NCBI GenBank assembly: GCA_016193285.1
Contig: JACPSL010000015.1
Location: 1-32,363, forward strand
DNA length: 32,363 bases
Source of the DNA: Candidatus Melainabacteria bacterium
GTDB taxonomy: Bacteria; Cyanobacteriota; Vampirovibrionia; 2-02-FULL-35-15
Direction of reading: 5' to 3'
The position numbers and the translations under genes are program-made. Below the pieces are notes generated by a model. It had not been told where the DNA came from and searched no databases. It saw only the letters and a program-made list of their open reading frames with translations. Shown here piece by piece: positions 10,336-21,956 of the stretch (positions within the stretch are counted from its first letter, which is position 1; the number at the start of each line of letters is the position of its first letter).

Positions 10336-10407
10336 TGGGTCACAAGGGACTCGAACCCATAACCTAACGCTTAAGAGGCGTGTGCTCTACCATTGAGCTA
10401 GTGACCC
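10336..10407 (-). tRNA. tRNA-Lys (anticodon CTT)
   Basis: The minus strand folds as a cloverleaf. The acceptor pair is GGGTCAC with GTGACCC, the D arm is GCTC-AATGGTA-GAGC, the anticodon loop is CTCTTAA with CTT at 10373-10375, and the T loop is TTCGAGT. The T stem has one T-T mismatch (ATGGG/CCCTT). The discriminator is A at 10336, and the next three bases (10335-10333) read CCA, so this gene alone of the three appears to encode its 3' CCA. It reads AAG lysine codons. A truncated paralogue lies about 150 bases downstream in its direction of transcription. Confidence 0.92.
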
Positions 10408-10440
10408 GTGAATATTTTTTCTGATTTCTGATTCTCTGCA

Positions 10441-10520
10441 TGGGCGCTGAGGGACTTGAACCCACACGGTGTTACCATATGATCCTAAGTCATACGCGTC
10501 TGCCATTCCGCCAAGCGCCC
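10441..10520 (-). tRNA. tRNA-Leu (anticodon TAG)
   Basis: A class II tRNA on the minus strand. The acceptor stem is GGGCGCT with AGCGCCC, the anticodon stem is TATGA/TCATA, and the loop CTTAGGA has TAG at 10485-10487. A long variable arm (about TGGTAACACCG) marks Leu. The T loop is TTCAAGT, and the T stem has a single T-T mismatch like the neighbouring tRNA-Lys. No CCA is encoded. It decodes CUA. It begins one base from the 3' end of tRNA-Arg, so the tRNAs are probably one transcript read Arg, Leu, Lys. Confidence 0.92.
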
Positions 10521-10521
10521 T

Positions 10522-10594
10522 CGCGCCCGAGACGATTCGAACGTCCGACCAACTGCTTAGAAGGCAGTTGCTCTATCCACTGAGCTACGGGCGC
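10522..10594 (-). tRNA. tRNA-Arg (anticodon TCT)
   Basis: A standard 73-base tRNA on the minus strand. The acceptor stem is GCGCCCG/CGGGCGC, the D arm is GCTCAGTGGATAGAGC, the anticodon stem is ACTGC/GCAGT, and the loop CTTCTAA has TCT at 10559-10561. The T loop is TTCGAAT and the discriminator is G. CCA is not encoded. It reads AGA/AGG, the favoured arginine codons in this AT-rich sequence. It is the promoter-proximal gene of the minus-strand tRNA set. Confidence 0.94.
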
Positions 10595-18955: not shown

Positions 18956-19764
18956 CACAGCAACCTATTTGTCTCTTTGACTCAGGCATTGGCGGACTAA
19001 CAGTCCTTAAAAAACTTATAAATAAATTCCCAAATGAAAATTATATTTATTTTGCTGACTTAGCAAGAGTACCATTTGGAGATAAAACAAAAGAAGAAAT
19101 TAAAGAAATTGCAAGTGAAATTATAGAGTGGCTTTCAAGGTTTAATCCAAAAACAATTATTATGGCATGTAATACTAGCTCTTCTGTATTGTGCGAGCAG
19201 GGCAGAATAAATCCTGCCCCTACAGTTCCTATTTACGGAATGATCAAATCTTGTGCAAAAGAAATTGCAAACTCAAATTACTTAAAAATTTCAGTTTGGG
19301 CAACTAGTCTGGTAGTAGAAAATAAAGCATATAAAAACTCAATTAATAATTTAAATCAAAAAATCGAAGTTAGTGAAATCGCATGTCCAAAATTAGTACC
19401 TATGATAGAAAGTTTAAATACAAATCACAAAGAACAAAGTGAGACATTACAAAAATATATAAATCAAATCCCAAATGATTCACAAGCTTTAATTTTAGGT
19501 TGCACTCATTATCCACTTATTAATGAAGTTTTACAAAAACTAATTAAAATAAAAATCATTGACCCAACAGATGCATTAATAAAAGAACTAGAAAAACATT
19601 TAATACCATGCACCGGTAATAAACAACAAATATCTATCTATGCAACTGCCGGGGAAGAAAAGCTTCAAAGATTTGCTAAATTATTTTTATGTGAAGATGT
19701 TAAAGTAAATTTAGTTAAGCTACACAAGCTAAGTAGTTACAAAGCTCTTAACAAAATTTTCTAA
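18952..19764 (+). CDS. murI: Glutamate racemase
   Basis: MurI makes D-glutamate for peptidoglycan precursors. The two catalytic cysteines are Cys73 (ACNTSS) and Cys184 (GCTHYP), with FDSGIGGLTV at residues 9-18 and PFGDKT at 41-46. Length (270) is normal. Residues 83-91 (QGRINPAPT) do not resemble the family, which has a charged helix here; they are encoded by a GC-rich inverted repeat at 19200-19219. The frame is preserved with about two extra residues compared with typical members, so activity could survive. The start overlaps the amidase stop by four bases, and the 3' end overlaps convergent trpA by 36 bases. Confidence 0.95.
   Translation: MTQQPICLFDSGIGGLTVLKKLINKFPNENYIYFADLARVPFGDKTKEEIKEIASEIIEWLSRFNPKTIIMACNTSSSVLCEQGRINPAPTVPIYGMIKSCAKEIANSNYLKISVWATSLVVENKAYKNSINNLNQKIEVSEIACPKLVPMIESLNTNHKEQSETLQKYINQIPNDSQALILGCTHYPLINEVLQKLIKIKIIDPTDALIKELEKHLIPCTGNKQQISIYATAGEEKLQRFAKLFLCEDVKVNLVKLHKLSSYKALNKIF
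19200..19219. repeat. Palindromic repeat inside murI
   Basis: GGGCAG (19200-19205) and CTGCCC (19214-19219) flank eight AT-rich bases and are followed by CTAC. It is a GC-rich island in AT-rich coding sequence, in frame, and it replaces family-typical residues. Its reverse complement (beginning GTAGGGGCAGG) resembles hairpin repeats that I recall as common between genes in cyanobacteria; one arm has decayed. Confidence 0.6.
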
Positions 19765-20481
19765 CCTTATTAAATTTCCTTTTTTCTTGCCTAAAACCTT
19801 AATCAAAGCACTTCCAATAACTACTCCGTCTGCACCATATGCAATTATTTGTTTTGCTTGCTTTGAATTACTAATTCCAAAACCTACAACAACAGGATTT
19901 CTTGTAAAAGATTTAATTTCTTGAATTTTGTTTTTTAGTTCTTGTGGGATTTTTTTTCTTACACCAGTCGTACCAGTAACTGAAACAAGATAAATAAAAC
20001 TAGTGGATGATTTTGTAATTTTTTTTATTTTTTCTTTTTTAGTTGGTGGTGCTGCAAGTAAGATTAAATGTAATTTATATTTTTTAAACAAGGGCAAATA
20101 TTTCTTTGCTTCTTCTAATGGTAAATCAGGAATTATAAGCCCATAGAAAAGAGGCTTTGGAAGATCATGTAATAATTTTTCCATGCCATAATTTAATATT
20201 GGATTAAAATATGAAAATAAAATTAATGGTTTGATTTTCTGTTGTAGAGACGCGATTAATTGCGTCTCTACAACGATCCATTTCAATGTAACATTATTTT
20301 CAAGTGCAATTTTTGATGAATGTTGAATAACAGGACCATCTGCAAGTGGATCTGAATGAGGTACACCAACTTCTATAAAGTCTGCACCTGAAATTGACAA
20401 AGTTTTTAAAATTGGTACAAATAATTTTTTAGTTGGAAACCCTGCTGTTATATATGGGATTAAGAGAGATTTATTTATCAT
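19729..20481 (-). CDS. trpA: Tryptophan synthase alpha chain
   Basis: TrpA splits indole-3-glycerol phosphate into indole and glyceraldehyde 3-phosphate, passing indole to TrpB. The start is the ATG at 20481 (MINKSLLIPYITAGFP); a TTG at 20487 is less likely. Catalytic Glu37 and Asp48 sit in FIEVGVPHSDPLADGP; VTGTTGVRKKIP is the mobile loop, and VVGFGISNSKQA and GADGVVIGSALIK bind phosphate. Length is 250. Residues 70-81 (VVETQLIASLQQ) are encoded exactly by the perfect palindrome at 20241-20274, in a helix before PLILFSYFNPIL. trpB is not in the window. Only 14 bases separate its start from divergent gatB. Confidence 0.95.
   Translation of the reverse strand: MINKSLLIPYITAGFPTKKLFVPILKTLSISGADFIEVGVPHSDPLADGPVIQHSSKIALENNVTLKWIVVETQLIASLQQKIKPLILFSYFNPILNYGMEKLLHDLPKPLFYGLIIPDLPLEEAKKYLPLFKKYKLHLILLAAPPTKKEKIKKITKSSTSFIYLVSVTGTTGVRKKIPQELKNKIQEIKSFTRNPVVVGFGISNSKQAKQIIAYGADGVVIGSALIKVLGKKKGNLIRLENFVKSFVTT
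20241..20274. repeat. Perfect palindromic repeat inside trpA
   Basis: GTTGTAGAGACGC (20241-20253) and GCGTCTCTACAAC (20262-20274) are 13-base perfect arms around GATTAATT. The repeat begins at the first base of codon 70 and encodes residues 70-80 plus the first base of codon 81, without breaking the frame. A hairpin with GTAGAGACGC arms is, from memory, a very common dispersed repeat in filamentous cyanobacteria, normally between genes. Such exact symmetry over 34 bases is not expected from codon choice. Confidence 0.85.
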
Positions 20482-20495
20482 GTACAATATACATT

Positions 20496-21956
20496 ATGCC
20501 AGTAACACAAACAAAATACGAAGTTGTAATTGGTCTTGAGGTTCATGCTCAATTAAAAACAAAGACTAAAATCTTTTGTACCTGCCCTGTAGATTTTGGC
20601 GCTGAGCCAAATATAAATGTTTGCCCTGTATGTTTAGGGATGCCTGGAGTATTACCTGTTTTAAATAAACAAGTGGTTGCTTATGCAATTAAAACTGGTC
20701 TAGCACTAAATTGTAAAATTGCTAAACATTGCAAGTTCGATAGAAAACAATATTTTTATCCAGACTTGCCAAAAAATTATCAAATATCCCAATACGATCA
20801 ACCAATTTGTTTAGATGGATATCTTGAAGTAAACGGAGTAAAAGAAAAAAAAATTGGCATTATAAGAATTCATATGGAAGAAGATGCTGGAAAATTAGTT
20901 CATGCTGGCTCAGATAGATTACATGGCTCTGAATATAGTTTAGTAGACTTTAATCGAACAGGAACCCCGCTTATTGAAATTGTAAGTAAACCTGATTTAA
21001 GGTCTGTTGAAGAAGCAAAAGATTACGCTCAAACACTAAGAAGCATATTGCGTTATCTTGATGTCTGTGACGGCAATTTAGAAGAAGGTTCGATGAGATG
21101 TGATGTAAACATTAGTTTACGGCCTACAGGAAGTAATACTTTTGGTACAAGAACTGAAATTAAAAATGTAAATAGTTTTAAATCACTTGTAAAAGCTCTT
21201 GAATCAGAAATAGAAAGACAAACAGAAATTTTAGATGGCGGCAGAAAAGTAATTCAAGAAACAAGACTTTTTGATGAAAGCTCTGGAAAAACCATTTCAA
21301 TGCGCAGCAAAGAAGAAGCTCATGACTATAGATATTTTCCTGAACCGGATCTTGTACCACTTGAAATTTCAGAAAAGTGGATTAATGAGATAAAAGAAAC
21401 AATACCTGAATTACCACATGCAAAAAAAACAAGATATCCAAAAGAGTTTGGACTTAGCATAGAAGACACTAAAGTCCTTATCGAAGATAGAAATATGGCT
21501 GAATTTTATGAAGCAGTCGTTAGACTTGGTGCAAACCCCAAGAAAGCTACAAACTGGTTAATAGGACCAGTTACAGCTTATCTTAAAGAACACAAAACCG
21601 ATATCATAAACTGTTGCATGACACCAAAACAACTCTCAGATTTATTAGGTTTAATTGAGAAAGGAATTATTAATGATTCCATTGCAAAAACTGAAATCAT
21701 TGAAGAACTTTTAGGTAAAGGTACTGACGCAGAAGAAATCATAAAACAAAAAGGACTTGCTCAAATTACCAATGTAAATGAATTAAAAGAAATAGTAAAA
21801 GAAATTTTGGAACAAAACCCAGAACAATTAAACCAACTAAAAGATGGCAAGGAAAAAGTTCGAGGATACTTTGTAGGCCAAATAATGAAAAAAACCAATG
21901 GCAAAGCAAATCCAACTATTGTGAATCAACTAATTACTGAGCTTTCAAGGAAATGA
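20496..21956 (+). CDS. gatB: Asp-tRNA(Asn)/Glu-tRNA(Gln) amidotransferase subunit B
   Basis: GatB binds the mischarged tRNA and carries the kinase/amidotransferase site that makes Gln-tRNA(Gln) or Asn-tRNA(Asn) with GatA and GatC. The start is the ATG at 20496 (MPVTQTKYEVVIGLEVHAQL); the frame is open further upstream but that part lies over trpA's start. Motifs are VCPVCLGMPGVLPVLN, FDRKQYFYPDLPKNYQIS, EEDAGKLVHAG, SLVDFNRTGTPLIEIVS and GSMRCDVNIS, followed by the C-terminal helical and YqeY-like tail (residues 330-486). The length of 486 is usual. gatA and gatC are absent from the window. The stop overlaps the next gene as ATGA. Confidence 0.97.
   Translation: MPVTQTKYEVVIGLEVHAQLKTKTKIFCTCPVDFGAEPNINVCPVCLGMPGVLPVLNKQVVAYAIKTGLALNCKIAKHCKFDRKQYFYPDLPKNYQISQYDQPICLDGYLEVNGVKEKKIGIIRIHMEEDAGKLVHAGSDRLHGSEYSLVDFNRTGTPLIEIVSKPDLRSVEEAKDYAQTLRSILRYLDVCDGNLEEGSMRCDVNISLRPTGSNTFGTRTEIKNVNSFKSLVKALESEIERQTEILDGGRKVIQETRLFDESSGKTISMRSKEEAHDYRYFPEPDLVPLEISEKWINEIKETIPELPHAKKTRYPKEFGLSIEDTKVLIEDRNMAEFYEAVVRLGANPKKATNWLIGPVTAYLKEHKTDIINCCMTPKQLSDLLGLIEKGIINDSIAKTEIIEELLGKGTDAEEIIKQKGLAQITNVNELKEIVKEILEQNPEQLNQLKDGKEKVRGYFVGQIMKKTNGKANPTIVNQLITELSRK

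Follow-up and report, generated by a model that had tools for sequence, protein, structure and literature searches.

The closest described systems are REP elements and their REP-associated tyrosine transposases (RAYT, or TnpAREP). TnpAREP subclass 2.4 is described with double-foot REPs and with REPs lying in frame within the tnpAREP gene, although this is not stated for every member (Quentin et al. 2018, PMC6006769). In double-foot REPs, the hairpin has a GT[AG]G foot at its 5' end and the reverse complement, C[TC]AC, at its 3' end, and the RAYT motifs are NH[IFV]H, WQ, and YIxNNP; the double-foot REP/RAYT 2.4 type is known from Cyanobacteria and Bacteroidetes, and an internal REP in the RAYT gene is its special feature (PMC6006769). 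Intragenic GTAG/CGTC REPs have also been described, for example, in Opitutus terrae and in Xanthomonas recB, and in two species different REPs sit at roughly one and the same position of recB (Di Nocera et al. 2013, PMC3733652). Finally, Rickettsia palindromic elements (RPEs; Ogata 2000, 2002, as reviewed in PMC10969869) are described as about 150 bp long.

The palindrome reported here, in trpA of a Melainabacteria relative, is a double-foot GTAG REP of the TnpAREP 2.4 type and thus belongs to a class of element already known. We file it there because the subclass has been described with both double-foot and in-gene REPs; the likeness extends to both feet, the RAYT motifs, and an in-frame REP between the HuH and Tyr motifs of the RAYT gene. 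Unlike in Quentin et al. 2018, where copies within ordinary genes are mentioned in passing, the majority of copies here lie in housekeeping genes, and the host is not a photosynthetic cyanobacterium. The REPs of Di Nocera et al. 2013 likewise occur in frame in ORFs, among them genes for DNA repair and tRNA synthetases, but are mostly intergenic, whereas here 84% are intragenic and host codons are replaced (PMC3733652). The sequence-only reading had proposed a host-gene equivalent of the Rickettsia case. This holds insofar as both are mobile palindromes translated in frame within conserved genes (here, 63/75 copies are in-frame repeats), but not for the kind of element: compared by description, RPEs are ~150 bp and the review's account of them mentions no RAYT, while our GTAG REPs are 27-34 bp, have GTAG/CTAC feet, and replace host residues (PMC10969869). 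Intragenic REPs (PMC3733652) and RPEs (PMC10969869) are, like the REP/RAYT kind itself, already known. As far as could be found, the searched literature contains no description of how far coding sequence is occupied, how photosynthetic relatives differ, how codons are replaced, or how sites are re-used, as presented below, and nothing relevant on GTAGAGACG or on Melainabacteria palindromes.

The trpA palindrome is perfect and in frame, as first read from the letters. The window, meaning the whole stretch of 32,363 nucleotides that was analyzed, carries trpA (tryptophan synthase alpha chain) on the minus strand at 19729-20481, supported by Pfam, PDB homologues, and AlphaFold2. Its ORF matches Trp_syntA (PF00290) with an E value of 5.4e-76, and residues 5-237 are aligned across the palindrome. 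The 34-bp repeat copy at 20241-20274 has 13-bp arms around a GATTAATT center, in the layout GTTGTAGAGACGC-GATTAATT-GCGTCTCTACAAC; it is the only match in the window to GTTGTAGAGACGC-N4..12-GCGTCTCTACAAC, and 0/100 dinucleotide shuffles contained one. Within it, the 28-bp double-foot core (GTAG foot to CTAC foot, 20244-20271) matches our covariance model at 40.2 bits (E 1.1e-9), and flanking GTT/AAC lengthens the symmetry beyond this core.

The palindrome encodes TrpA residues 70-81, VVETQLIASLQQ (numbered from the ATG at 20481). These residues are lineage-specific and are lacking in sister families. For TrpA, the best named relatives, at 80, 73, and 68%, come from "Candidatus Melainabacteria" MAGs, the nearest at ~80% identity. 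In the AlphaFold2 model (mean pLDDT 81.5), a helix spans residues 66-78 and is followed by a lower-confidence loop; the earlier placement of the peptide in a helix is therefore roughly right, with the loop after it less certain. The stretch EVGVPHSDPLADGP, which we take to include the Glu and Asp that serve catalysis in TrpA enzymes elsewhere, is intact. At the element, the interval is 13 residues here and 11 in the relatives nearest to the empty state, so that "inserted" is better worded as "mostly substituted". Three relatives (G002, G005, and G010) have 11 unrelated residues at this site, G007 has GTAGAGACGTTGTGCACAACGTCTCTAC, and G003, G004, and G009 have decayed or tandem relatives. In G004 (locus L070), two decayed palindromes overlap in tandem and add 7 codons, indicating nested or serial insertion. 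A second trpA insertion of ~6 residues, after KIV, occurs in G006 and G003 (L071 and L072; RAYCNISLSD and KACHGMPHNG, respectively). Its DNA in G003, GGCATGCCATGGCATGCC, is palindromic, and the other genera lack it; it is probably another palindrome family.

The trpA palindrome belongs to a large dispersed family. Its core, GTAGAGACGC, occurs 54 times in the host genome (a 1.81-Mb draft in 39 contigs), compared with 0 occurrences of a reversed control. Searching with a covariance model built on the 28-nt hairpin places the element at ~75 distinct sites, probably a minimum (150 of 267 candidates scored), which answers the earlier suggestion of a genome-wide search. Copies are 27-30 nt long and take the form GTAGAGACG...CGTCTCTAC with GTAG...CTAC ends in nearly all. 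The nine outer pairs (GTAGAGACG) scarcely differ between copies, while the inner four, the apical stem, vary on both sides. This variation is compensatory: covariation is 0.398 versus 0.094 in shuffled alignments (0/500 shuffles as high), stem changes are double-sided in 53 cases versus 15.8 in shuffles, and 96.9% of pairs across copies are standard. The small dispersed repeats of Nostoc, which Elhai reportedly treated in 2008, are likewise said to be very small cyanobacterial hairpins (21-27 nt) with compensatory changes. We liken them by description only, and they are not known to be mainly intragenic.

Most copies lie within genes. We counted a copy as intragenic when an ORF of at least 100 amino acids started before the element and read through it; these are ORFs, not curated genes. 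Sixty-three of the 75 copies (84%) qualify, and the host ORFs number 55 distinct sequences. When 52 of these were scanned against NCBIfam or Pfam, 49 matched known families. They include LeuRS, AlaRS, GltX, enolase, AtpH, HemB, and PyrD; QueA, QueG, MnmA, MnmE, RlmB, RlmD, RsmG, Der, YchF, RadA, PurN, and Fmt; and TrpA, TrpC, AroE, LeuD, DapF, MtnA, ThiE, ThiL, and others (Fmt, RsmG, and AlaRS being named by family match only). ORFs of at least 100 amino acids cover ~91% of the window; thus, the element hardly avoids genes in this genome. The intragenic copies use the three reading phases in a ratio of 33:29:1, the third of which puts a TAG stop in frame. One 360-amino-acid enzyme, MtnA, has three copies and still gives a full-length family match (L062:1750-2829). 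A fused uroporphyrinogen-III methyltransferase/synthase ORF (L049:61-1620) has two copies, and the adjoining hemB has a third.

This placement differs from that in other cyanobacteria. Among the sampled relatives, the motif was present in 6/11 genomes of the family and in 0/86 from the remaining families of the class. Beyond the class, it is again present in many genomes of the phylum sample, some with >100 matches per strand. The suggested link to filamentous cyanobacteria is borne out: the exact motif is carried by plasmids of Calothrix, Kovacikia, Anabaena, and Planktothrix and by many photosynthetic cyanobacterial genomes. Only 4/30 out-of-class copies (30 genomes, one copy each, with photosynthetic status inferred from phylum) are within ORFs that reach 100 amino acids, two of which are only 110 and 120 amino acids long, compared with 63/75 here (P 1e-11) and 24/40 in sister genera. 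Scarcity of coding sequence does not account for this low share, because ORFs cover 59% of the out-of-class loci. The repeat is therefore mostly in frame in conserved enzyme genes in this groundwater cyanobacterial relative and mostly intergenic in other cyanobacteria. REPs are "extragenic" by name, and this 28-bp element mostly is so in photosynthetic cyanobacteria; in their sister lineage here, it sits mostly inside genes, those for enolase and tRNA synthetases among them.

Comparison with orthologues shows that the element largely overwrites host residues instead of only adding to them. We aligned 12 host genes with orthologues from five to nine other genomes and read the net gain where element-free relatives agreed, or nearly agreed, on one length; the MnmA second site and the MtnA fourth site, at which orthologues carry other insertions, were left out. 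Net gains in codons were +2 and, at a second site, +5 in QueG, +3 in ThiE, +8 in HemB, +2 and +4 in MnmA, +5 in MtnA, and +2/+1 in TrpA; in other genomes, they were +2 in ThiE (G009) and +4 in LeuS (G003). None of the measured genes gains the full ~10 codons, the range being 1-8. Furthermore, the in-frame share is equal for 28-nt copies (44/52) and 29-nt copies (17/21), a result that insertion of one fixed length could not produce. Because the gain is smaller than the element and both lengths keep the frame, host codons must have been lost, at insertion or soon after. We infer that the loss occurred during insertion, although the small net gain could instead arise if selection trimmed host codons afterwards.

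We consider it probable, at roughly 75%, that the element is a non-autonomous GTAG REP with two feet that is mobilized by a RAYT and substitutes into genes. As such, it would be a mobile repeat with GTAG at its 5' side and CTAC at its 3' side, and its mover would most likely be an HUH/tyrosine transposase (TnpAREP, RAYT) encoded at G000:C18 in the host genome, with the single-stranded hairpin as substrate. Landings would occur all over the chromosome. Those surviving in genes would keep the frame open and fall in a tolerant surface helix or loop, the peptide being read in whichever stop-free phase results. Entry of a ~28-nt hairpin with loss of variable host DNA would yield proteins that are 1-8 residues longer, often near their original length. 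A broader proposal is more tentative, and we lean somewhat against it: that REP/RAYT here spreads mainly through coding sequence by such substitutive insertion, the hairpin entering and variable host codons being lost in the same event with length nearly kept, and that tolerant surface sites are docking sites refilled by different palindromes across genera, so that essential enzymes would keep acquiring protein variation from this source.

Sites in host genes are re-used across genera. Orthologues in other genera also carry palindromes, often of other families (GTAAGGGCA, GTAGGGGC, GTAAAGGCA, and GAAGGCGAGG), and 9/18 of these lie at sites also used here, versus 3.1 expected under random placement, an expectation that ignores the scarcity of tolerant loops (P 0.00075). 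Shared descent of some insertions may contribute to this overlap, as may the limited choice of tolerant loops, and some shared-site elements could be old insertions that were kept palindromic rather than new ones. In its strong form, this would mean a single burst in the ancestor of the family, inherited vertically, with template-directed correction or gene conversion between copies maintaining the palindromes and little moving today. The excess of shared sites fits such a history, as does the presence of decayed versions at the shared sites of TrpA and LeuS, but we find it rather unlikely. Different families occupy one site in different genomes (GTAGAGACG versus GTAAGGGCA in LeuS, and GTAGAGACG versus GTAAGGTCCAG in PGM), and QueG, HemB, and ThiE show clean insertions confined to one genome, all or nearly all other genomes keeping one empty length. 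The random control, moreover, takes no account of how few loops are tolerant.

The candidate transposase carries the palindrome itself. The host genome has two Y1_Tnp genes, and the one at G000:C18 is of RAYT type, with the motifs NHVH, WQ, and YIVNNP. It matches Pfam Y1_Tnp above cut-off and the NCBIfam REP-associated tyrosine transposase (REP_Tyr_transpos) with an E value of 4.5e-16, below the curated cut-off. Between HuH and Tyr, the gene contains GTAGAGACGCGATTAATCGCGTCTCTAC in frame (L046:2631-2658), with the same center type as the trpA copy. This internal GTAG hairpin is the only one seen in the 6-kb locus; no flanking hairpin was found there, flanking REPs being typical of REPtrons but not strictly required. 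The RAYT-type genes of G003, G007, and G009 also have palindromes in this region, belonging to other families. Where a RAYT-type gene is present, genomes have 32 (G000), 6 (G003), 20 (G007), 8 (G009), and 0 (G010) motif copies, while the six without one have 3, 0, 0, 0, 4, and 0; this association of RAYT presence with copy number within the family is suggestive only. The RAYT-embedded palindrome is also only partly the commonest dispersed family of its genome, because in G007 the embedded family GTAGGGGC is abundant as predicted (17) yet GTAGAGACG is commoner (20), and in G003 the embedded GAAGGCGAGG has no further exact copy in the genome, with a near copy in leuS. A plasmid search with the RAYT protein returned distant matches only. 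An RNA intermediate has reportedly been suggested for the small dispersed repeats of Nostoc, and mobility here could likewise proceed without a RAYT, for instance through RNA. G001 and G006, with three and four copies but no detected RAYT of this type, point that way; the palindromes embedded in RAYT genes, together with the published link between double-foot REPs and subclass 2.4, make it unlikely.

A selected host function for the element, whether as mRNA structure, as a pause or stability signal, or as a useful linker peptide, appears very improbable. Perfect palindromes do persist in conserved, mostly essential genes, and REPs elsewhere are thought to affect mRNA (PMC3733652). However, copies are split nearly evenly between the two open phases (33:29, P 0.70), which give unrelated peptides (VET....SL. 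or.RDA...VST), the host genes share no obvious theme, and sister-genus orthologues often lack the element. Chance or an assembly artefact can be dismissed, as can conserved residues: nothing was found in favor of an artefact beyond the draft state of the genome in 39 contigs, while shuffles give an expectation of 0, and the palindrome has a high copy number, recurs independently in several genomes, and lies in frame in dozens of genes.

The contrast in placement between the two lineages allows the old Rickettsia question of whether mobile palindromes shape proteins to be tested in another, unrelated bacterial group, for which a candidate enzyme can be named. The host genes amount to dozens of natural experiments in which an essential enzyme accommodates a foreign peptide of ~10 residues.

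Several further observations concern RAYT genes and the window. The RAYT genes of G010, G009, and G007 (L195, L197, and L206, respectively) encode a VGADPCVCPN-like stretch downstream of HuH, which may be the translation of a REP that has decayed or is of a different kind. A genome of another family (L199, G017:C2) has a GTAGGGGC repeat family of nine copies, one of which lies ~0.1 kb away from a weakly matching Y1 transposase, and this looks like an ordinary flanked REPtron. Within the window, trpA (minus strand) and a GatB-like gene (plus strand, named by eye) have divergent starts 14 bp apart (20481-20496), and three tRNA genes are clustered on the minus strand at 10336-10594 (Rfam).
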